Virus record (IMG/VR): IMGVR_UViG_3300045141_000365
Span: 1-54,567 of that record
DNA from: a virus
Reading direction: 5' to 3' (one strand)
Length of the DNA: 54,567 nt
Shown in pieces: positions 5,928 to 54,567 of this stretch. The notes beneath the pieces are model-generated. The model worked only from the letters and a program-made list of their open reading frames with translations, was not told where the DNA came from and made no database searches. Position 1 is the stretch's first letter. Every line of letters starts with the position of its first letter. The position numbers were made by a program, and so were the translations under genes.

Positions 5928-6143
5928 ATGAGCGACATTGTTCTGGTGGCCATCATCGCCACTGTGCCAGGAGTGCTGACTGCTGCTGTAGGGTATTGCG
6001 CGGTCCACAAAAAGACCAATGACCTGAAGGTCCATATTAATTCCCGCATGGATCAGTTGCTGGCAGTCTCGAATGCCGCCAAATTCGCGGAAGGTAAAAT
6101 CGAAGGCCGATCGGAAGCCACCATCAAAGCGCCGGTATCATGA
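5928..6143 (+). CDS. Small membrane protein of the lysis region
   Basis: Seventy-one residues from the ATG at 5928. One N-terminal transmembrane segment (about 4-24) is followed by 'HKKTNDLKVHINSRMDQLL', a short coiled-coil tail. This topology fits a small holin accessory or inner-membrane spanin-type protein. It precedes two more membrane proteins and a lipoprotein, supporting a lysis role, but the family is not recognised with certainty. Confidence 0.7.
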   Translation: MSDIVLVAIIATVPGVLTAAVGYCAVHKKTNDLKVHINSRMDQLLAVSNAAKFAEGKIEGRSEATIKAPVS

Positions 6144-6146
6144 ACT

Positions 6147-6431
6147 ATGGCAAACGGAACACCACCCAAAAAAGGGTTGCGGTTTTCACCAGAAATAAAC
6201 GCGGGGCACATCCTGACGGCCGTTATGTTGCTGTTCGGAATTGTTGGTGGTTATGCCGCCTTTCACACCCGGCTTTCGGTGCTTGAATTCCGACAGGCGC
6301 AGACAGATCAGGTCGTCAATGAACTGAAGAACAATAATGTTAAACTGGCCCAATCCATCGAAGAATTGAAGACAATCAGCATCAGGCTGACTGTGTTTGT
6401 GGAGGAAAGCCGAAAATCGAAAAGGGAATGA
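6147..6431 (+). CDS. Membrane-anchored coiled-coil protein (spanin/holin-accessory type)
   Basis: Ninety-four residues. A short cytoplasmic end, one transmembrane helix (about 20-40, 'ILTAVMLLFGIVGGYAAF') and a heptad-rich tail ('LEFRQAQTDQVVNELKNNNVKLAQSIEELK') give the topology of an inner-membrane spanin or antiholin. It lies between two other membrane proteins, and the lipoprotein three genes on could be its outer-membrane partner. Confidence 0.72.
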   Translation: MANGTPPKKGLRFSPEINAGHILTAVMLLFGIVGGYAAFHTRLSVLEFRQAQTDQVVNELKNNNVKLAQSIEELKTISIRLTVFVEESRKSKRE

Positions 6432-6432
6432 T

Positions 6433-6819
6433 ATGCCGGACATGGATTACTTCTCCAAGGAGTTGACCCAGATCTTTCACTCGTCCCCGCCGATCTTCCT
6501 GTGTGTGGCCATCATCGCTCTCGGCTACGCGATTAAACTGATCCCGTCCATTCCGAACCGGATCATCCCGATGGTGACCTATAGCGTGGCCATCGTGGCA
6601 TACCCGATCATTTCTGTGCCCAACCCTGGGAGCCTGCCGCAGAATTACTCAACAGTGGCCGGCATCGTGCGGGACATGCTGGGTGGGGTTATTATTGCGT
6701 CCATTGCCTGGATTGCGCATCTTGTGGTCCTGAAAAAGCTGATCGACAAATACATGCCGGTAAACGATCGGGGAGATACCAAGTTTATGACCAAGCCACC
6801 AGAGGAGCCAAAACCATGA
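6433..6819 (+). CDS. Putative holin
   Basis: One hundred and twenty-eight residues with three hydrophobic helices (about 20-37, 42-60 and 78-100). The loop 'LIPSIPNRIIPMV' between helices 1 and 2 resembles the 'IP+xxIP' turn of phage holins of the phi29/A118-like groups, and the C-terminus is charged. It would form the inner-membrane lesion releasing the lytic enzyme. It overlaps the lipoprotein gene by four bases and the peptidase gene follows, so the cassette order supports the call. Confidence 0.65.
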   Translation: MPDMDYFSKELTQIFHSSPPIFLCVAIIALGYAIKLIPSIPNRIIPMVTYSVAIVAYPIISVPNPGSLPQNYSTVAGIVRDMLGGVIIASIAWIAHLVVLKKLIDKYMPVNDRGDTKFMTKPPEEPKP

Positions 6820-7148
6820 AGCGCCTGCTCTTTTTATTCCCACTGCTGCTCTGGGGATGCGCCCTGAACAACGGGGTTCCAGCCAACAAGATCAACATCG
6901 TCACACCTCAAGGGTCGTACAACATCTTCACCCCAAAGAACGTCACCATTGACGCATTTGTGGCCACGGTGGAAACCAACGGCATCGTCAAGGTGAGCTT
7001 CACCAAGTGGCAAAGCGCCAACGATCCACTGGTGATCGACAAGGCGGCTGCGGGCCAGGTGTCGATCATAAACGCCTGGAATAATCTGGTCAGTCAGGCT
7101 GTGTTTTCGGCTGCCAATGGCGCCGTGCAAGGAGCGGTAAAGCCATGA
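6816..7148 (+). CDS. Small lipoprotein (possible outer-membrane spanin)
   Basis: One hundred and ten residues. The N-terminus 'KRLLFLFPLLLWGC' is a lipoprotein signal with the lipobox cysteine at residue 15. The mature part is short and beta-rich. Its place between the holin-like gene and the peptidase, with a coiled-coil inner-membrane protein nearby, fits an o-spanin-like partner, although it is not nested in the i-spanin gene as classical examples are. ATGA overlaps lie at both ends. Confidence 0.7.
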   Translation: MKRLLFLFPLLLWGCALNNGVPANKINIVTPQGSYNIFTPKNVTIDAFVATVETNGIVKVSFTKWQSANDPLVIDKAAAGQVSIINAWNNLVSQAVFSAANGAVQGAVKP

Positions 7149-7900
7149 GAAGCATTCAACGTTACGGCTGGCGCCCTGATTTGGGTGATGTCCGGGATCT
7201 CATATTTCGGCCTACATTAGATGCCGCACAGCTTCCGCCCAAGGTGGATCTCCGTGCTTTATGTCCACCGGTCTATGACCAATGGCAATTAGGTTCCTGC
7301 ACTGGCAATGCTTCCGAAGCTCTCTTCCGCTTCCAGCACAAGAAACAGACTGGCACTGACTTTGAAGGTTCGCGCCTGTTCGCTTATTACGGGGGGCGGG
7401 AAGCTGAAGGCAGTACGGATACCGATTCCGGGGCTATGATCCGGGATGTGATCAAAGCCATACGCAAGGAAGGCATTTGTTCAGAGCAATGTTGGCCGTA
7501 CGATATTGCGCGGTTCGCTGATCGTGCTCCACAATCCTGTTACGACGAAGCCCTAAAGCACCAATCGCTCAAGTATCATCGCATCAATGGATTGCACAGC
7601 ATGAAGTCATGCTTGGCTCAAGGCTATCCATTTGTGTTTGGATTTTCAGTGTACGAAAGCTTTGAAAGCCCCGAGGTCGCTCGCACCGGGATGATGCCAA
7701 TGCCAGATCCAAGTGAAGCACTGCTTGGTGGTCATGCTGTGATGGCTGTGGGTTATGACGATACGCTCAAGATGATGATAGTCCGTAACTCATGGTCGGA
7801 TTCTTGGGGGGTCGGAGGATATTTTTGGATGCCACAGGATTATGTTTCAAATCCTGCACTGTCAGACGATGCATGGACAATTACGCTGGAAGAAATTTAA
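7145..7900 (+). CDS. Papain-like (C1A) cysteine peptidase in endolysin position
   Basis: Two hundred and fifty-one residues covering the papain fold. Visible catalytic set: oxyanion Gln46 and nucleophile Cys52 in 'YDQWQLGSCTGNA', His197 in 'GGHAVMAVGYDD', Asn215 in 'VRNSWSDSWGVGGYFWMP'. There is no signal peptide and no pro-domain longer than about 35 residues. It ends the cassette of membrane proteins, holin-like protein and lipoprotein, where an endolysin is expected; no lysozyme, amidase or transglycosylase was recognised elsewhere. It may cleave cell-wall peptide cross-links or surface proteins during lysis. Alternatively it processes virion proteins, though its distance from the head genes argues against that. 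Confidence 0.85.
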   Translation: MRSIQRYGWRPDLGDVRDLIFRPTLDAAQLPPKVDLRALCPPVYDQWQLGSCTGNASEALFRFQHKKQTGTDFEGSRLFAYYGGREAEGSTDTDSGAMIRDVIKAIRKEGICSEQCWPYDIARFADRAPQSCYDEALKHQSLKYHRINGLHSMKSCLAQGYPFVFGFSVYESFESPEVARTGMMPMPDPSEALLGGHAVMAVGYDDTLKMMIVRNSWSDSWGVGGYFWMPQDYVSNPALSDDAWTITLEEI

Positions 7901-7901
7901 C

Positions 7902-8432
7902 TTAAATATGCCTCCAAGTGTGTCTCGCCAAGATGGCCTTAATATTGGCTTCTGAAACTGAAAATGCGGTAGCAATTTCTTTTCTTGGCACTTTCCCCCT
8001 GAGTGATCGAATTGAGATCACCTCCTTTTCGGTCAACTTTGCCAATGCATGAGATTCTCCGCGTGGTCTGCATTCTGGCCGTCGCCTTGAACTATGCTCG
8101 CCCCCTCTTTGGATTTGCTCCGGATGCGTTGCGCTTCCGTGGCGTCCCTTTTTCACAGCATCTAAAATATTGTCGGAATTTGTTCCAGCGAACAAATGGT
8201 TGGGGTTAACACAGGAAGGATTGTCGCAATGGTGGCACACGTAAAGCCCAGATGGGATCACGCCATAATGCATTTCATAGCTGATACGATGGGCTGATAC
8301 AGACTTTCCTCTCCCCATTATAATCATTCCGTAACCAGACTTCGTTTTGGCTCCGATCCACAACCAGCAGGAATCGGTCTTTTTGACCTTATCCCAAAAC
8401 CTAGTATGTGCTGGAGTGACTTTTTTAGGCAT
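7902..8432 (-). CDS. HNH homing endonuclease (HEG 3, HNH_3 type)
   Basis: One hundred and seventy-six residues. An N-terminal 'CWLWIGAKTKSGYG ... AHRISYEMHYG' segment leads to 'VCHHCDNPSCVNPNHLFAGT', the zinc-binding HNH core. The C-terminal 'HALAKLTEKEVISIRSLRG' plus helix-turn-helix is a DNA-recognition module. It is antisense, one base past the peptidase stop. The sequence after the peptidase stop (TTTAACTT) resembles the sequence before the next gene (TTTAAGCTT), hinting at a duplicated junction. Confidence 0.9.
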   Translation of the reverse strand: MPKKVTPAHTRFWDKVKKTDSCWLWIGAKTKSGYGMIIMGRGKSVSAHRISYEMHYGVIPSGLYVCHHCDNPSCVNPNHLFAGTNSDNILDAVKKGRHGSATHPEQIQRGGEHSSRRRPECRPRGESHALAKLTEKEVISIRSLRGKVPRKEIATAFSVSEANIKAILARHTWRHI

Positions 8433-46946: not shown

Positions 46947-47558
46947 ATGGATGGAATGCCCAAGACCGTGCTTAAATCCAAAACCCCGGAGTATCGGAAG
47001 CAACTTCGACTGAATAGGACGCCAGAACAAAGGGAGCATTACCGAAAGTATACAAATCGATGGCACGCAAAAAATGCCACTCGCCTTTGCCAAAAAAGAC
47101 TAAGATTACGTGAACATTTCAACGATCTTCAGCGGATAAATTACCACAAAAGCAGAGCCTCCAGACTTCTAACCAGAAGAGCCTACGAGGACCAAAGGCG
47201 AGAGAAAATCAACAGTCAACGTCGAATTCATTACGCGAAAAATAAACACAAAAATCGTGCTCAAATAGCAGCAGCGAGCGCAAGGCGGCGCGCTCTCAAG
47301 AAGGGCTGCAAACTGGATTTAAGATGTATCAAAAAGTGGATGGTAGATATTAAATCCCGTGTTGCTTTTCGGTGTTATTATTGTCAACGGATGTTTTCAA
47401 CGATGGACGTTTGCTTTGATCATGTTTTTCCGCTCTCAAAAGGGTACCCGCATCGCATTGAAAACCTTTGCGCATCGTGCGAACCGTGTAATTCAAGAAA
47501 ACACGATAAACTTATTTCCGAATGGAGAACACAAGGGCAATTGCTTTTTGAATTATGA
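46947..47558 (+). CDS. HNH homing endonuclease (HEG 7)
   Basis: Two hundred and three residues from ATG 46947; 46956 is possible. A very basic helical N-terminus ('YRKYTNRWHAKNATRL', 'RREKINSQRRIHYAKNKHKN') precedes an HNH domain with 'CYYCQR', 'CFDHVFPLSKGYPHRIENL' and 'CASCEPCNSRKHDK', closely related to HEG 4. It overlaps the portal start by ATGA and sits in the divergent gap after the glycan operon. AT-rich. Confidence 0.9.
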   Translation: MDGMPKTVLKSKTPEYRKQLRLNRTPEQREHYRKYTNRWHAKNATRLCQKRLRLREHFNDLQRINYHKSRASRLLTRRAYEDQRREKINSQRRIHYAKNKHKNRAQIAAASARRRALKKGCKLDLRCIKKWMVDIKSRVAFRCYYCQRMFSTMDVCFDHVFPLSKGYPHRIENLCASCEPCNSRKHDKLISEWRTQGQLLFEL

Positions 47559-49873
47559 GTCTTTTTGAAACCGCAGCAGAGGTCGAAGAGATCACGTGGC
47601 AGCTTAGACTAGCCGACTTTCCGCGCAGTAGAAATAGGGCCAAAATTAACGACCTGTTCAATGGAGGCGCGCCTTATAGCCAGCAACAGGCTGACGAGAT
47701 GAATTTGAGTTGTAATTACAATGACCTTTCGGCCCCCCGCATGGGCCACGATGCCCGGCGCCAGTTTACCTCCGCCTTCCAGAAGCCAGCCAATTTCTTC
47801 AAGGTCCAGATCGATAGTGGTCCGGTTCACAAGCGGGAGGCACGCTCCACCATCATCACCAAGGAGCTGAACAAACGGCTCAAGAAGTCGCTGCCTTACT
47901 TTGAGACCCTCCGTAGCACATTCGCCAACGTGGTTCTGCACGGCATCGGGCCTTCTGTCTGGCATGATCCAGAGCGGTGGTACCCCAAAGCCAAGGGGGT
48001 TGAGGACATCATGGTTCCCGGTAACGCCACCCTGGATCTGGACAACCTTTCAATGTTCGCTGTGTTCGAGCCCTACACAGCCATGCAGATGCGCAAACTG
48101 ACCCAGGGGCCGAACCGTGACAAAGCGTGGAACATGGAACTGGTGGACAAGCTCATTGCCCAGGCGAACAAGGAAGTCTTGGATTTCGGCATTCCTAATG
48201 CTGAAGTCATGTCACCGGAAAAGCAGGCGGAGCGGTTCCAGCGGGACAGCGGGATCTTCGCGGCGGATTCATTGACCACGATCGACACGTGGAGCTTTTA
48301 CTTCTGGGATGACGAGGGCAAGGAGGCTGGATGGCGCAAACGGGTTATTCTGGATGCCGATTGGGCTATGGGCTCCGGGGGTGTGCCCACCATGCCGAAG
48401 GACACCAAAAACTTGAAGACACGAACCGGGGATCGTGGTGCCTTCCTGTTTAATCCCGGCAATCGAGTCTATGCCCAAAAGATCAGCGAGCTGATTCACT
48501 TCCAATTCGGAGACCTTTCCGCTGTAGCGCCATTCCACTACCACTCCATTCGATCCCTTGGGTGGTTGCTCTACGCTGTGTGCCACCTCCAGAACCGACT
48601 TCGTTGCAAGTTCATGGACTCAGTGTTTGAGCAGCTCATGCAGTATTTCCGGGTCAAATCCCAGGAAGAGGCGGAGCGGGCATTGAAGATAAACCTGATC
48701 GACAAGGGGTACATTGACGAATCGGTTCAGTTCATCCCCCCAAACGAGCGCTGGCAGATCAATCAGGCCCTGGCGGAGATGGCCCTGCAACAGAATGATT
48801 CGCTCATTGGCCAGAATGCCGCTATTTATCGCTCAGAGACTGACTACGGTGGCGGAAAAGAAAAAACGGCTACACAGGTCATGGCTGAAGTCAACGCCTC
48901 CACGGCCCTTGTAGGCGCAGCATTGCAGCAAGCCTACCAGTATCAGGAATTTCAGTATCAGGAAATCGCCCGCCGCTTCACCATCAAGAACTCCAAAGAC
49001 ATCGATGTCAGAAGCTTTCGAGCCTCCTGCCTTAAGCGGGGAGTGCCGGAGAGCGTCCTGAACGACATCGAAGCATGGGAAGTGACTTCCGAGCGGGTCA
49101 TGGGAGGCGGGAACAAGACCCAGGAAATGGCTCTGGCCAACCAATTGATGCAGTGGCGGCCCATGTTCGATCCCCAGCCGCAACGCGAGATTCTTTACAG
49201 TGCCGTCCTGGCCTACACCGATGATGCCGATATGGCCCAGCGGTTGGTTCCGGATGACCCCAACAAGGTCAGTAATTCCAAGCACGATGCCCAGCTTACG
49301 GCCGGCGCTCTGCTTCAGGGTCTGCATGTGGATCTTCAGACTGGCCAGAACCATATCGAGATCGTGGAAGCGCTCCTGCACGAATTTACGCTGGTGGTGC
49401 AAAAGATCGAGCAGTCAGGCGGGATGGCCACCAAGGATCAAATTGTGGGCTTCGGCAACATGGCCCAATACATCGGGCAGCAGATTCAGATCATTGCCCA
49501 GAACCCAGAGGAGAAAGGCCGGGTGAAAGAGTATGGGGATGACCTTGGGAAGCTGATGAATCTGGTCAAGGCTTACGCGCAACGACTCGCTGAACAGCAG
49601 AAGAAGGCGGCTCAGGCCAATGGCCAGCAGGTCGATCCGAAGGACATCGCCAAGCTTAAGGGCATGGAATTGATCAATCAGGCCAAAGCGGCGAACACCC
49701 GTGAAAGCCATGCGCAGCGCAGTGCTCAGCGCCAAACTCAATTCGAGTTGAAGGCGCAACAGGAAACCCAGAAGCACGCTCAGGATCTGGCGTTTGAGGC
49801 CGACAAGGCCAGGTTGGATATTGTGAAGGATGCCGTGAAGCATCGGAACAAAATGAAGTCGCTCAAGGAATGA
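47555..49873 (+). CDS. Portal protein
   Basis: Seven hundred and seventy-two residues, the large size of podovirus portals. An N-terminal helical stretch, 'RSTFANVVLHGIGPSVWHDP' and 'QVMAEVNASTALVGAALQQA' are portal-like. A long Gln/Lys/Ala coiled-coil C-terminus (about 680-772) would form the internal barrel. It heads the head module: portal, minigene, ATP-grasp, small genes, scaffold, capsid. The stop overlaps the next start (TGATG). Confidence 0.85.
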   Translation: MSLFETAAEVEEITWQLRLADFPRSRNRAKINDLFNGGAPYSQQQADEMNLSCNYNDLSAPRMGHDARRQFTSAFQKPANFFKVQIDSGPVHKREARSTIITKELNKRLKKSLPYFETLRSTFANVVLHGIGPSVWHDPERWYPKAKGVEDIMVPGNATLDLDNLSMFAVFEPYTAMQMRKLTQGPNRDKAWNMELVDKLIAQANKEVLDFGIPNAEVMSPEKQAERFQRDSGIFAADSLTTIDTWSFYFWDDEGKEAGWRKRVILDADWAMGSGGVPTMPKDTKNLKTRTGDRGAFLFNPGNRVYAQKISELIHFQFGDLSAVAPFHYHSIRSLGWLLYAVCHLQNRLRCKFMDSVFEQLMQYFRVKSQEEAERALKINLIDKGYIDESVQFIPPNERWQINQALAEMALQQNDSLIGQNAAIYRSETDYGGGKEKTATQVMAEVNASTALVGAALQQAYQYQEFQYQEIARRFTIKNSKDIDVRSFRASCLKRGVPESVLNDIEAWEVTSERVMGGGNKTQEMALANQLMQWRPMFDPQPQREILYSAVLAYTDDADMAQRLVPDDPNKVSNSKHDAQLTAGALLQGLHVDLQTGQNHIEIVEALLHEFTLVVQKIEQSGGMATKDQIVGFGNMAQYIGQQIQIIAQNPEEKGRVKEYGDDLGKLMNLVKAYAQRLAEQQKKAAQANGQQVDPKDIAKLKGMELINQAKAANTRESHAQRSAQRQTQFELKAQQETQKHAQDLAFEADKARLDIVKDAVKHRNKMKSLKE

Positions 49874-49989
49874 TGCCCGAGGGCCACGTAGACACTGATG
49901 AGGGGGACGGATTGCCCGAGGACCAATCGGACGCCCATTTTGCCACCGACGAAGGATCAGCACAGGAGGATCACGATGAAAGAGACTAG
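49873..49989 (+). CDS. 38-residue very acidic minigene
   Basis: It starts in the portal stop (TGATG) and overlaps the start of the ATP-grasp gene by 14 bases. Fifteen of 38 residues are Asp or Glu, spread along the chain ('HVDTDEGDGLPEDQSD' and 'TDEGSAQEDHDERD'). The coupling makes translation likely. It could be a peptide substrate of the ATP-grasp enzyme, a small acidic head protein, or only a coupler. Confidence 0.55.
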   Translation: MPEGHVDTDEGDGLPEDQSDAHFATDEGSAQEDHDERD

Positions 49990-51262
49990 CCAGATCAGCG
50001 CTCTCGTTTTGGACAATGGTTTGTTCTTGCCTCTTGCCCTCAAGCTTGGGCCATCCTTTAAACGTGTGCTTTACTTCACTCCATCGGAGCGAGCCTTCAG
50101 CGTGATCAATGATGCCGCGCTCGGGGATGGCTTTGACGACTGGAACGTGGAGCGGTGCGACGATTTTTGGGAGGAACTCAAAGACATCGATCTGGTGATT
50201 GTTCCGGACATTGGCAATTCCGGGATTCAGCAGCACCTGGAATCCATTGGCAAACTGGTGTGGGGCTCAAGGATGGGTGACAACCTGGAACTCAAACGCG
50301 GTCTGCTCAAGAAAGTCCAAAAAGAAGTCGGGCTCCCGGTGCCTGAACACAAATCCATTATCGGCCTGGATGACCTCCGCGATTTCCTGAAAGGGGAGCA
50401 GGAGGTTTACGTGAAGGTCTCCCGGTTCCGGGGAACGACTGAGACATTTCACCACATCGATTATGCGCACTCCCTACCGTTGCTTGATCACCTTGCGGTA
50501 CTCCTGGGACCACTCCAGAACGATTTCCCATTTATGGTCGAATGGCCGATCGAAACGAAAGTTGAGCTGGGGTATGACGGCTACTGCATTGACGGGAAGT
50601 ACCCCAAGCTCGGCATTCAGGGCATCGAATGCAAGGACCGTGGCCTGATAGCGTCAGTCCAGAGTTACGATGAATTGCCCAAGGAGGTGACGGAGATCAA
50701 TGACGCCATGGCGCCGGTCTTCGCGAAGTACAAATACCGCAACTTCCTTTCCACTGAGATCCGGGAAGGCACCATGATCGACATTACTTGTCGCGCCGGG
50801 GTGCCAAGCATTGAAAGCCAAATGGAGCTGTGGAGCAACCTGCCTGAGATTATCATGGCGGGGGCTGCCGGTGAAGTGGTGGACCCGATTCCAGCCGCTA
50901 AATTCGCGGTCGAATGCATCATCCATCACAGCGATGACGAAGCCCGCTGGCGGGTGATGGAGGTGCCTGAAGAGGCTCGGGATGCGGTCAAGCCGTACTT
51001 CGCCTGCTACCATGACGGGCTCTACTGCTTCCCCCCTTTCCCGCACTCGTCGGAAATTGTTGCGTCCATCGTGGTAATTGGTGATGATCTGGCTGAAGCC
51101 ATTGGCGATTTGAAGGAAATGGCGGGGCTCCTCGACGATCAGCCAGTGACTGTAAAGATCGATGCAATCAGCGACATGCTCAAAACCATCCATGAATCCG
51201 AGAAGGAAGGTGTTGAGTTTTCCCCCGACGAAGTTCCACAACCAGAGGAGGTCATCACATGA
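49976..51262 (+). CDS. ATP-grasp-fold protein in the head module
   Basis: From ATG 49976 (AGGAGG six bases before) the product has 428 residues. Residues 1-100 form a Rossmann-like pre-grasp domain ('VLYFTPSERAF', 'DLVIVPDIGNSG'). 'EVYVKVSRFRG' holds a likely ATP-binding Lys147; 'FMVEWPIETKVELGYDGYCI' and 'FLSTEIREGT.IDITCRAGVPS' (259-277) supply the acidic/Arg metal and nucleotide site. ATP-grasp enzymes join a carboxylate to an amine or alcohol. Related-looking proteins occur near portal genes of other phages, without known function. Two tiny coupled genes flank it. Confidence 0.8.
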   Translation: MKETSQISALVLDNGLFLPLALKLGPSFKRVLYFTPSERAFSVINDAALGDGFDDWNVERCDDFWEELKDIDLVIVPDIGNSGIQQHLESIGKLVWGSRMGDNLELKRGLLKKVQKEVGLPVPEHKSIIGLDDLRDFLKGEQEVYVKVSRFRGTTETFHHIDYAHSLPLLDHLAVLLGPLQNDFPFMVEWPIETKVELGYDGYCIDGKYPKLGIQGIECKDRGLIASVQSYDELPKEVTEINDAMAPVFAKYKYRNFLSTEIREGTMIDITCRAGVPSIESQMELWSNLPEIIMAGAAGEVVDPIPAAKFAVECIIHHSDDEARWRVMEVPEEARDAVKPYFACYHDGLYCFPPFPHSSEIVASIVVIGDDLAEAIGDLKEMAGLLDDQPVTVKIDAISDMLKTIHESEKEGVEFSPDEVPQPEEVIT

Positions 51263-51306
51263 AACGCAAAGGCAAAAAGAAAACTAAAATGAAAAAGGGC
51301 TACTGA
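51259..51306 (+). CDS. 15-residue lysine-rich minigene
   Basis: It starts in the ATP-grasp stop (ATGA) and ends in TGATG of the next gene. The product MKRKGKKKTKMKKGY has nine basic residues of 15 and ends Gly-Tyr. Overlaps at both ends argue that it is translated. It may bind DNA or the capsid interior, or be a modification substrate. Confidence 0.6.
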   Translation: MKRKGKKKTKMKKGY

Positions 51307-51590
51307 TGACCAGGAGCCCCAAGGCGCGGTTTCAGGATAATCCTGCCGCCGTCTCCAAACACGCGGAACTCATGGCTGATCCCGGGTTCCTTCATGCAGT
51401 TGACATGGCTATGTGCCAAATGATTCACACCCAGCCCATGGTGAAGGATGCGCATGGTTCCATGGCGATGGCGCACCGGATCGAGGGAGCCAACAGCTTC
51501 ATTGAGGTACTGAAATCGCTGTCAGAGAAAGGGGAGGTTGTGTCCCGTAAATCAATCGGAAACTTGGAAGGGAGTGTCAGCCCAAAATGA
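51306..51590 (+). CDS. Small head-module protein
   Basis: Ninety-four residues, helical ('AAVSKHAELMADPGFLHAVD', 'SFIEVLKSLSEKGE'), with many Met and His. Coupled by TGATG and ATGA. A virion or assembly role is likely from position, but no family is recognised. Confidence 0.7.
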   Translation: MTRSPKARFQDNPAAVSKHAELMADPGFLHAVDMAMCQMIHTQPMVKDAHGSMAMAHRIEGANSFIEVLKSLSEKGEVVSRKSIGNLEGSVSPK

Positions 51591-51961
51591 ATAAGCGCAA
51601 TTTCTTCAAAGGATTGGTGGCACTGCTGGCGATGCCGTCAACCATTTACGCCAGGATTGTCAGTAAGCCCAAGCCAGCGCCGTTTCATTACTTCTTCAAA
51701 AGGGAAGAGGGCTTTGTGGTGCAGGTCGATGTCCGAAGCCCGCAAGACGTTCGGGAGGGGATGCTGGTGGAGTACGGGAGCCAGTTGCTGAAGATCGTCA
51801 AAAAGGCTCCTGCATCGTTTTTATACAAGGGTCAAGTGGCTGAAAATCTTAGGCAGGACAAGTTTTTCGTTAAGAATCTATACGCGCAACGGGATCAGTT
51901 GCTTGTGCTGTTTGGGGTTGTTTTCCCCAATGATGCGATAAAGTTCTATGTCCGCGCTTGA
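51587..51961 (+). CDS. Small protein with hydrophobic N-terminus
   Basis: One hundred and twenty-four residues. 'KRNFFKGLVALLAMPSTIYA' looks like a weak signal or Tat-like leader but lacks twin arginine. The remainder is beta-rich. In the head module, so possibly capsid-associated; the leader is unexpected there. Confidence 0.68.
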   Translation: MNKRNFFKGLVALLAMPSTIYARIVSKPKPAPFHYFFKREEGFVVQVDVRSPQDVREGMLVEYGSQLLKIVKKAPASFLYKGQVAENLRQDKFFVKNLYAQRDQLLVLFGVVFPNDAIKFYVRA

Positions 51962-52157
51962 GTTTAGCAGCCCCCACGCCACCCTGCATGTCATCGGTCC
52001 CAACGGTGAGCCCAGCAGCTACGATCAGACGAAGGGGCATACCGCGATGGACACAAAGCTGTCGCGTAAGATTATGAAGCTGGCCCTGCAAAATTCCAAA
52101 TTCAAGCATCCATTCAAGACCCGAGTCCGAAAAGTTCGAGCCCCGAAATATTACTGA
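51948..52157 (+). CDS. Small basic head-module protein
   Basis: Sixty-nine residues, overlapping the previous gene by 14 bases. A basic C-terminal half ('KLSRKIMKLALQNSKFKHPF', 'RVRKVRAPKYY') suggests DNA or capsid binding. Not recognised. Confidence 0.68.
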   Translation: MSALEFSSPHATLHVIGPNGEPSSYDQTKGHTAMDTKLSRKIMKLALQNSKFKHPFKTRVRKVRAPKYY

Positions 52158-52158
52158 T

Positions 52159-53496
52159 ATGCCAGAAGCCCCAGTAGCCCCCGGTCCTCCGCCACCTTCC
52201 GCCCCTGTAGCGCCGGCTGCTCCGCCACCCCCAGGGACACTGGATTCCGCCAAGAGCGGGCTGGACCGGTTTGCCCGGGAGCCCTCAACCGATGGGGGTA
52301 TACGACCGGATCACCCCGCAGAGATTGCACGCAAAAAGAACGAAGCCAGCAAGGCGCCACCTAAAGCGCCGGCCAAGGAACCAGATGCCAAACCAACTGA
52401 CCGGACCGATAGCGACACTGACGAAGTGCCTGGAGATAGCGAAGAGGCTGGCAGCACTAAAGCAGCAGGTGCTAAAGATGCGCCAAAACCTGGCGAACCA
52501 CAAAGACCCAAAAAGCCGTCTGATTTTCTTCGCGAAGAACTCGCCAAGCAGAAAGCGAGAGTGGAGGCTTACGAAAAAGAACTTACGGCGCTCAAGGCCC
52601 CAAAGGAAGACCCGGAAAAGCTCCAGTTGACCGAGAAGCTCACGGCGGCCGAGAAACGCGCCCAGGAGCGCGAGGACGAGCTGCGCTTTGCGAATTACGA
52701 ACGGAGCGAGGAGTACCAGCAGAAGTATTTCAAGCCTTACGTCGATGCGTTTAACGTGGCCCGGAACAAGATCACTTCCCTAGATGTGGTGGAACGCAAG
52801 CAGGTGGACCCGGCAACAGGCGAGGAGCGTATCACCCAAAAGGGCAGACAGGCCACCCCGGAGGACTTTGACCAAATCGCTCTGATGCCTTCCGATCGGG
52901 AGGCGCGATTGCTGGCTAAGCAGCTTTTTGGTGAGGATTACGCTGTCGCCATTCAGCACCGGGAAAAGGTCCATGAACTCAACATGGCCCGGACCAATGC
53001 CCTGAACGAGCAGCGGACCAAGGGCGCGGAGCGCGAGAAGCTGCAAGCCGAACAGCGGACCAAGGCTCAGGTCGAAACGCAGAAGCGAAATGCTGAACTT
53101 TGGACGGCAGCCAACAAGGAGTTTGCCGAAAAGCATCCGGACTGGTTTGCCGATGTGGAGGGCGATGAAGAGGCCAATGCGATGCTGAAAAAGGACATCA
53201 CCACCACCGATGCCTTGTTCGGCGATGTCAGCCAGTTGCCACCGGAGAAGGTGGTGAAGCTTCACAGTGAGATGCGCAACCGGGCAGCGGCAGCCGGGCG
53301 CTTGTCGCATCTGCTCACCAAGGCCAGGGCTGAACTCGCTGAAGTGAAGAAGAAGCTTCAGGGCTACGAGGGATCTGAGCCTAAGGACGGGAACGGAGTC
53401 GCTGAAAAGCCCAGTGGTGATGCTCCGCCAGACACAATGGCTGGGGTCATGGCTTCTCTCGACAAATACGGGAAAGAGAAGACAATGTTTTACTAA
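52159..53496 (+). CDS. Scaffolding protein
   Basis: Four hundred and forty-five residues. Pro/Ala-rich and acidic N-terminus (1-110), then charged coiled coils ('LAKQKARVEAYEKELTALKA' near 130-150; 290-330), and a helical C-terminus. Immediately before the capsid gene, as scaffold genes usually are. A single long open frame without a protease domain, so no fused maturation protease is seen. Confidence 0.82.
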   Translation: MPEAPVAPGPPPPSAPVAPAAPPPPGTLDSAKSGLDRFAREPSTDGGIRPDHPAEIARKKNEASKAPPKAPAKEPDAKPTDRTDSDTDEVPGDSEEAGSTKAAGAKDAPKPGEPQRPKKPSDFLREELAKQKARVEAYEKELTALKAPKEDPEKLQLTEKLTAAEKRAQEREDELRFANYERSEEYQQKYFKPYVDAFNVARNKITSLDVVERKQVDPATGEERITQKGRQATPEDFDQIALMPSDREARLLAKQLFGEDYAVAIQHREKVHELNMARTNALNEQRTKGAEREKLQAEQRTKAQVETQKRNAELWTAANKEFAEKHPDWFADVEGDEEANAMLKKDITTTDALFGDVSQLPPEKVVKLHSEMRNRAAAAGRLSHLLTKARAELAEVKKKLQGYEGSEPKDGNGVAEKPSGDAPPDTMAGVMASLDKYGKEKTMFY

Positions 53497-53878: not shown

Positions 53879-54567
53879 ATGAGTTGTCCTGCAGCGACTG
53901 TGATTCGAGGATGTGACTTCGTCCAAAATTTGGTCGACCAGCAGCCCGTGTATGATAAGCTGATCCTCCAAGACATTACCCCTGTCGATGGTTGGATTGG
54001 CAATATGACCATGGGGTCATTTGAAGCATACTCCGGCGTGGAACACACCCTGGACCGCTTTACCGATGTCTGGCCTGACACTACCAAGACCTGGTCCCGG
54101 GTCCAGTCCGGATCGTGCCTGGGTGCTCCCTGTGATCAGACACGGTACACCCTTGGATGGGGTGCCAAGCGCCTTTCGTATTTCCTGGAGCAGCAATCAT
54201 GGAAGACTCCGCTGCTCTGCTACGACCAGGAGATGCACATCACCCATGCCAAAGAGCACTTGGGCCAGATCATCTCCGACATCCTGAAGCCCGCCACTTC
54301 GGCCATTATGTCCGAATTCATGCGCAAACGGGCGCTGTTCCATGCCAGCAAGAAGTGGGTGGCGGCAACCAATCAGCCGGATTTCACCTTCGTATTCTCC
54401 CTGGGAACGGCTGCGGGACAAACAGACGCGGAAATCTTCTTCGATTGTTCGGCCCCCAATACCGGCGCGGGCTCTCCCAAAAAGCTCACCCCCCAAATGC
54501 TCCAGCGCCGGTTCCAGCCGCTCATGCGCATTGGTTACGCCGGCAAGAATCCATTCAAGGAAACAGC
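53879..54567 (+). CDS. Major capsid protein, N-terminal part (continues at the window's start)
   Basis: Start ATG 53879; the frame continues through the join at 54441/1 to the stop at 1109 for a total of 556 residues. The N-terminus lacks an HK97-type delta domain. It follows the scaffold gene, a terminator and a strong promoter, consistent with the high expression of a capsid gene. Confidence 0.8.
   Translation, partial: MSCPAATVIRGCDFVQNLVDQQPVYDKLILQDITPVDGWIGNMTMGSFEAYSGVEHTLDRFTDVWPDTTKTWSRVQSGSCLGAPCDQTRYTLGWGAKRLSYFLEQQSWKTPLLCYDQEMHITHAKEHLGQIISDILKPATSAIMSEFMRKRALFHASKKWVAATNQPDFTFVFSLGTAAGQTDAEIFFDCSAPNTGAGSPKKLTPQMLQRRFQPLMRIGYAGKNPFKET
54441..54567. repeat. Terminal direct repeat, copy 2
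   Basis: Identical to 1-127; see that entry. Confidence 0.95.

Follow-up and report, generated by a model that had tools for sequence, protein, structure and literature searches.

We examined a viral DNA of 54,567 nucleotides (IMG/VR record IMGVR_UViG_3300045141_000365; this whole stretch is referred to as the window) in which a gene for an ATP-grasp ligase is flanked by an acidic and a lysine-rich minigene, downstream of the portal gene in the head module. The ends of the window carry an exact 127-bp terminal direct repeat (1-127 and 54441-54567), so the record is probably the whole virus genome, a complete phage genome; the capsid gene spans the record ends across this repeat. All elements of the cassette that a first-pass annotation had described from the letters of the DNA were present:

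47555-49873, plus strand: portal protein, 772 amino acids, whose stop opens the cassette (supported by relatives, with the role assigned from position)
49873-49989, plus strand: acidic peptide gene, 38 amino acids, MPEG...DGLPED..., net charge -14 (motif conserved in relatives)
49964-49969, plus strand: AGGAGG ribosome-binding site of the ATP-grasp gene, within the acidic frame (from sequence)
49976-51262, plus strand: PurD-like ATP-grasp ligase, 428 amino acids (AlphaFold2 model, PDB structural matches, invariant residues)
51246-51251, plus strand: AGGAGG ribosome-binding site of the lysine-rich minigene, within the ATP-grasp gene (from sequence)
51259-51306, plus strand: lysine-rich minigene, 15 amino acids, MKRKGKKKTKMKKGY (from sequence; relatives have basic proteins of 38-80 amino acids in this slot)
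51306-51590, plus strand: 94-amino-acid protein of the p92 family, right border of the cassette (31% identical to the homologue in locus L104, E=1e-9)

The genes are tightly overlapped. The portal TGA (49871-49873) shares a base with the ATG of the acidic frame at 49873 (TGATG), and this frame (MPEGHVDTDEGDGLPEDQSDAHFATDEGSAQEDHDERD, 38 residues of which 15 are Asp or Glu) ends at 49989, 14 nucleotides into the enzyme gene (ATG at 49976). The enzyme stop overlaps the ATG of the lysine-rich frame at 51259 (ATGA), whose own TGATG starts the next gene at 51306, and AGGAGG stands 6-7 nucleotides before both the enzyme gene and the lysine-rich frame. Across the 54.6-kb genome, the acidic minigene is the sole ATG frame of 15-60 residues with at least 38% Asp/Glu, and the lysine-rich minigene the sole ATG frame of 12-40 residues with at least 55% Lys/Arg; 20 shuffles of the 8.5-kb region yielded no frames of either kind. 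The portal protein had no match in PHROG or Pfam.

Because single-sequence searches with the enzyme (IMG/VR patterns, INPHARED, PDB, Pfam, PHROGs, and GTDB contigs) returned no match, relatives were reached via the portal. A portal search gave seven IMG/VR relatives at about 45% identity, a portal profile then gave 80 loci, and enzyme and portal profiles widened the set to about 130 loci; after removal of repeated contigs, 90 portal-bearing loci remained, 34 with the enzyme and 56 without. That enzyme-less relatives carry the gene elsewhere was ruled out in 17 long records (44-60 kb, near genome length), which held no copy. The phage group was absent from INPHARED when searched by enzyme, portal, and capsid protein, and the cassette carriers are a set of uncultured phages.

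We detected an acidic frame with an MPE[G/E] start, 19-47 residues, and 9-18 Asp/Glu, positioned after the portal gene and/or before the enzyme gene, in 20 of the 34 enzyme-bearing loci and in none of the 56 enzyme-less portal relatives (Fisher p=9e-7; this and the Fisher tests below were run on loci dereplicated at 80% and are not corrected for phylogeny). The motif [GA][LM]PED is found in 13 of the 21 known copies, with APED, PPED, or similar in the others, and the last residue is Asp or Glu in 19. When the collection was scanned at the DNA level for MPEG..GLPED without regard to the enzyme, 19 stretches were returned: nine, starting with ATG or GTG, were bona fide copies, all of them immediately upstream of the enzyme gene (one, L051, comes from a clipped part of the L022 contig, in which the enzyme is visible), and the other ten were CTG-start or unrelated frames. 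Identity at codon positions 1, 2, and 3 was 0.905, 0.944, and 0.399 among the 13 copies with [GA][LM]PED, and because the first two positions are conserved while the third varies, the acidic peptide is under protein-level selection. The frame is present even where the portal is only about 21% identical (L029), and it still adjoins the enzyme in L025, where the portal is 2 kb away. The first-pass annotation had asked whether the minigenes persist in relatives; the acidic one does so in these 20 loci, with motif, charge, and coupling conserved. In L025, portal and acidic peptide are split by an insertion of about 2 kb (5966-7880) with a C-rich, repetitive-looking start and apparent minus-strand genes.

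The same annotation had drawn attention to the lysine-rich minigene, and here a basic small gene does follow the enzyme in most relatives, although the exact 15-codon frame is specific to the window. In relatives, basic proteins of 38-80 amino acids from two families, B1 and B2, fill the slot behind the enzyme, and the ATGA overlap is often the same. B1 proteins carry the pattern Q-x-[ML]-V-[DN]-Q-x-P-x-[YF]-D ahead of a Lys/Arg-rich tail and copy the N-terminal arm of the capsid protein, and B2 proteins have an aromatic C-terminus and an amphipathic stretch, K-P-L-L-K-L-I-G-K-M. Of the 34 enzyme-bearing loci, 20 held B1 and 12 held B2, and neither family was found in any of the 56 enzyme-less loci (Fisher p=3e-6 and 3e-4, respectively); as enzyme-bearing genomes supplied the sequences for both profiles, the positive counts lack independence, but the zeros are still informative. 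Of 1790 small frames in loci with the enzyme, 17 matched a regular expression for the capsid arm, against 0 of 2307 in the remaining loci; most enzyme-less genomes have the same capsid arm, yet no small-frame copy of it. Such copies occur in L021 (9264-9437), L022, L068, L071, L072, L079, L082, L088, L093, and L098, with QAMVDRNPKYD in the small protein of L079 against QAMVDQTPRFD in its capsid protein. In several genomes B1 is placed elsewhere in the head region (offsets to 3.5 kb) and still tracks the enzyme. The corresponding downstream features of the window are the following:

51948-52157, plus strand: 69-amino-acid basic protein of family B2, ..LSRKIMKLAL...VRKVRAPKYY (hidden Markov model E=1.7e-7, with this copy itself among the 11 sequences of the model)
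52159-53496, plus strand: scaffold-like protein, 445 amino acids, ending ..KTMFY (homologues lie between cassette and major capsid protein in relatives; function assigned from position and composition)
53879-54567, plus strand: start of the major capsid protein, continuing at 3-1109, with N-terminal arm QNLVDQQPVYDK (role assigned from position and conservation)

B1 and B2 proteins often end in aromatic residues. Aromatic ends (MFY, QYF, NYF, KFY, KWY, RWY) were observed on scaffold-like proteins of the window, L002, and L003 as well as on small basic proteins, and are perhaps a shared capsid-docking tail.

Comparison of closely related genomes showed how these genes travel. L104, which has the enzyme, shares 78-84% nucleotide identity in the portal region with L058, L065, and L097, which lack it, and both flanks are colinear; what sets L104 apart is a single insert, about 2 kb long and placed between the portal and p92 genes, with the acidic peptide, an HNH-type open reading frame, the enzyme, and a B2 protein, and the last 29 or so portal residues differ as well. 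The p92-family gene, which directly follows the portal gene in enzyme-less relatives, lies at or near the portal stop in most of those genomes (offset about 0) and 1.4-3.6 kb from it in nearly all enzyme-bearing loci, with one outlier at 6.7 kb. Defined by this insertion, the cassette of the window is 49873-51306, the same interval as in the first-pass annotation. The enzyme state changes at least 10 times on the tree built from 48 portals; the acidic peptide moves with the enzyme in about six of eight independent pairs and never in the opposite direction (sign test p about 0.03), and the basic proteins move with it in about five of eight (p about 0.06). The genes form a mobile accessory head cassette that is gained and lost together. 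In L018, a SET-domain protein (7576-7986; PF00856, E=3e-9) sits between the portal and the ATP-grasp gene.

The identity of the enzyme as an ATP-grasp protein, proposed in the first-pass annotation, is upheld by fold, with conserved nucleotide- and metal-site residues, rather than by sequence. An AlphaFold2 model built from an alignment with 17 relatives had a predicted local distance difference test score of 91.1 and a predicted template modeling score of 0.90, and the thirteen best PDB matches to it were glycinamide ribonucleotide (GAR) synthetases (2yw2, E=1.9e-18, template modeling score 0.73), followed by biotin carboxylases and, lower, carbamoyl phosphate synthetase; the 50 PDB matches listed comprised GAR synthetase, biotin, pyruvate, and propionyl-CoA carboxylases, and carbamoyl phosphate synthetase. 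In 17 sequences, with relatives 33-40% identical to the window copy, residues K147, E197, E218, K220, E261, R263, D269, and R273 are invariant, active-site positions among them. Of these, K147, K220, E261, D269, and R273 line up with PurD and include the nucleotide Lys and the acidic Mg-site residues typical of the superfamily. PF01071 (GARS) does not match the enzyme, and hhalign aligned it with Escherichia coli PurD colinearly at 19% identity over 300 columns with a weak E=0.019, setting D269-x-T-x-R273 opposite E-F-N-C-R. In L040 (2247-4623), an intein-like insert interrupts the ATP-grasp gene exactly within the D-x-T-C-R motif; inteins usually sit at essential active sites. Given the PurD-like fold, the invariant nucleotide- and metal-site residues, and the position of this insert, the enzyme very probably belongs, as an active ligase, to the PurD branch of the ATP-grasp superfamily, an assignment made by fold and not by sequence. 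A role as a purine biosynthesis gene is not supported by its head-module position, its distance from PurD, and its changed metal-site residue. The enzyme appears fused to an N-terminal HAD-like domain in L017 (7581-9218) and L133 (2956-4617), as judged by eye and with no Pfam match. In L034 and L035, a short motif, KRGxISPKAxxxxG, is common to the enzyme C-terminus and several small basic head-region proteins encoded downstream of it, and it resembles the KSGIIRPDK stretch of B1 proteins.

We tentatively favor, at rather less than even confidence, the explanation that the cassette makes amide bonds between the acidic peptide and basic proteins or capsid in the head. By ATP-grasp chemistry, the PurD-like ligase would activate a carboxylate as an acyl-phosphate and join it to an amine. 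The acidic peptide, with its MPE[G/E] N-terminus and usually GLPED, may be a disordered partner that serves as donor or docking partner, and the one or two polycationic basic proteins, or the capsid itself, may be the acceptors. During head assembly, isopeptide or amide bonds would then link acidic-peptide carboxylates to lysines of a capsid-docking basic protein or of the capsid, leaving the inner head surface tagged, cross-linked, or re-charged. The more specific proposal, which we consider doubtful, is that this would be the first virus-encoded peptide-conjugation system on a virion, in which an acidic mini-peptide is joined to lysines of capsid-N-arm mimics as a charged tag inside the capsid. 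The literature that we searched describes no such cassette and no link of ATP-grasp enzymes with phage capsid modification; what is new is the composition of the cassette and its tie to capsid-arm mimics, and the enzyme chemistry is of a known kind. Many phage ATP-grasp enzymes are known with guessed targets and no linked substrates, and here there are small, testable substrate candidates. The tie between the enzyme, the acidic peptide or its alternative partner (described below), and basic proteins that copy the capsid N-arm spans at least 10 gains or losses. If ligation is true, it would offer a new route of capsid modification, as well as 20-residue peptide substrates for enzymatic protein labeling.

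Several observations weigh against this explanation. The cassette is dispensable for the head, the window is without a B1 protein, and the Asn that is typically the second metal ligand of ATP-grasp enzymes is Thr, Cys, Ala, or Ser here. Further, the acidic peptide is replaced in 12 enzyme-bearing loci by HEL, a protein of about 120 amino acids with HExxE and EPGDxPxAPY motifs (Fisher p=0.05 for HEL against the enzyme), and the two never occur together. The portal tree shows at least five swaps between them and the enzyme tree at least six, and because HEL stands in its place in these relatives after repeated swaps, the enzyme family does not have the acidic peptide as an obligate substrate. 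Distant phages (L033, L037, L013, and L031) pair the enzyme with HEL and a gene resembling S-adenosylmethionine (AdoMet) decarboxylase, with no acidic peptide (PF02675, E=5e-15 in L033 at 7254-7625 and 7e-5 in L037 at 6034-6387). These neighbors fit a small-molecule substrate as well, hinting at polyamine chemistry; the portal-family loci that were read showed no such gene next to the enzyme.

HEL is found, for example, in L098 (10322-10714), L067, L030, L013, L031, L033, L037, and L133 (4621-4998). L133, a 6.3-kb GTDB contig from an archaeon bin, encodes HEL after the HAD-fused enzyme and showed no acidic frame. A structure search with HEL gave no significant match (best 8sln, PprI, E=0.2), and HEL had no match in PHROGs or isolated phages. 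Its loop DDSEPGD loosely resembles DDDGLPED of the acidic peptide.

A chaperone could be exchanged more readily than a covalent substrate, and the exchange between acidic peptide and HEL is among the points that make charge management without peptide ligation a serious alternative, if one held at somewhat lower confidence. Here, the basic proteins would line the inner capsid and neutralize DNA, the acidic peptide or HEL would act as a chaperone or mask before packaging, and the enzyme would make or attach a small amine or amino acid, such as a polyamine conjugate. The two kinds of minigene are strongly opposite in charge and co-occur, as this would predict, and the AdoMet decarboxylase-like neighbors in L033 and L037 agree with it; the confinement of those neighbors to loci outside the portal family among those read does not. 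The MPE[G/E] and GLPED motifs are also more specific than bulk charge requires, and a pure chaperone leaves unexplained why the peptide tracks the enzyme gene.

Such tracking, together with the position of the peptide immediately upstream and its translational coupling, would be accounted for if the acidic peptide served the ligase as a noncovalent subunit for activation or docking, a part taken by HEL in other lineages, while the enzyme adds a free amino acid to a head protein. A single enzyme clade switches between acidic peptide and HEL. We regard this as unlikely, however: the C-terminal half of the peptide varies in length and in sequence beyond charge, and L024 keeps the enzyme gene with neither acidic peptide nor HEL.

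The genes could instead be passengers that do not work together, brought into an insertion hot spot between the portal and p92 genes and co-occurring because the slot accepts DNA, and this slot does also hold the HNH-type frame of L104, the SET domain of L018, and HEL. This is improbable in that acidic peptide, B1, and B2 occur in no enzyme-less genome, though many could hold one, B1 tracks the enzyme even from its other positions in the head region, and the acidic peptide of L025 stays with the enzyme at 2 kb from the portal.

The first-pass annotation had compared the locus to graspetides, and the ATP-grasp gene does adjoin a short Asp/Glu-rich frame, as expected for a ribosomally synthesized and post-translationally modified peptide whose acidic precursor is cyclized through its own side chains. 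This analogy did not survive. Lys is missing from 16 of the 21 acidic peptides, and Ser, Thr, and Lys are all missing from four (L021, L038, L068, and L082), so with acceptor residues lacking in several peptides, intramolecular lactone or lactam rings are not the general product. The enzyme has a PurD-like fold and a virion-module position, and no leader, protease, or exporter was recognized among the neighbors read, where no dedicated search was made for them. On acceptor content and fold we reject this reading, which is very improbable.

Finally, the AGGAGG of the enzyme gene does fall inside the acidic frame, yet that the frame is a mere by-product of ribosome-binding or translational-coupling sequence is hardly credible and is refuted by the codon pattern and co-occurrence, with conserved residues 40-100 nucleotides upstream of AGGAGG, free third and constrained first and second codon positions, and a peptide that is kept in L104 and L053, where its frame and the enzyme start are separate.

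Among known systems, graspetide (microviridin and plesiocin) clusters are alike in having an ATP-grasp enzyme beside a short Asp/Glu-rich peptide gene. Their known precursors are divided into a leader and a core, frequently with GG-type cleavage sites (PMC8939145). The phage acidic peptides, in contrast, often lack a Ser/Thr/Lys acceptor, and the phage enzyme is nearest to PurD, with the MdnC/RimK-like ligase type not among the 50 PDB matches listed. R2K (CDC123-like) ATP-grasp peptide ligases occur in caudate phages and large DNA viruses and are predicted protein modifiers (PMC4431377, PMC7824862), for which no linked target genes were reported and host-protein targets were proposed (PMC4431377). 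They too are phage ATP-grasp enzymes but are not among the structural matches listed for the enzyme studied here. LUZ24-like phages encode an ATP-grasp protein of 291 amino acids with amidoligase and glutamine amidotransferase genes and a GGCT-like neighbor in an early, replication-side location (PMC3890496); this is likewise a phage ATP-grasp gene near an amidoligase, and no charged minigenes were reported there (PMC3890496).

GAR synthetase (PurD) shares with the phage enzyme its fold, domain order, and colinear sequence, and the Lys and acidic/Arg active-site positions are kept. It differs in that its E-F-N-C-R is D-x-[TSAC]-x-R in the phage enzyme, which PF01071 misses and which lies in a head module with charged minigenes. 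In the Pup-PafA system, a small, acidic, disordered peptide is joined via a carboxylate to lysines; PafA is glutamine-synthetase-like and not an ATP-grasp enzyme, and Pup is about 64 amino acids long and ends in GGQ or GGE. The phage peptides are shorter, at 19-47 residues, and have no GGQ/GGE end, and the phage ligase fold is not glutamine-synthetase-like; the likeness to Pup would be one of concept, should the phage peptides, 19 of 21 of which end in Asp or Glu, be conjugated to lysines in the same way.

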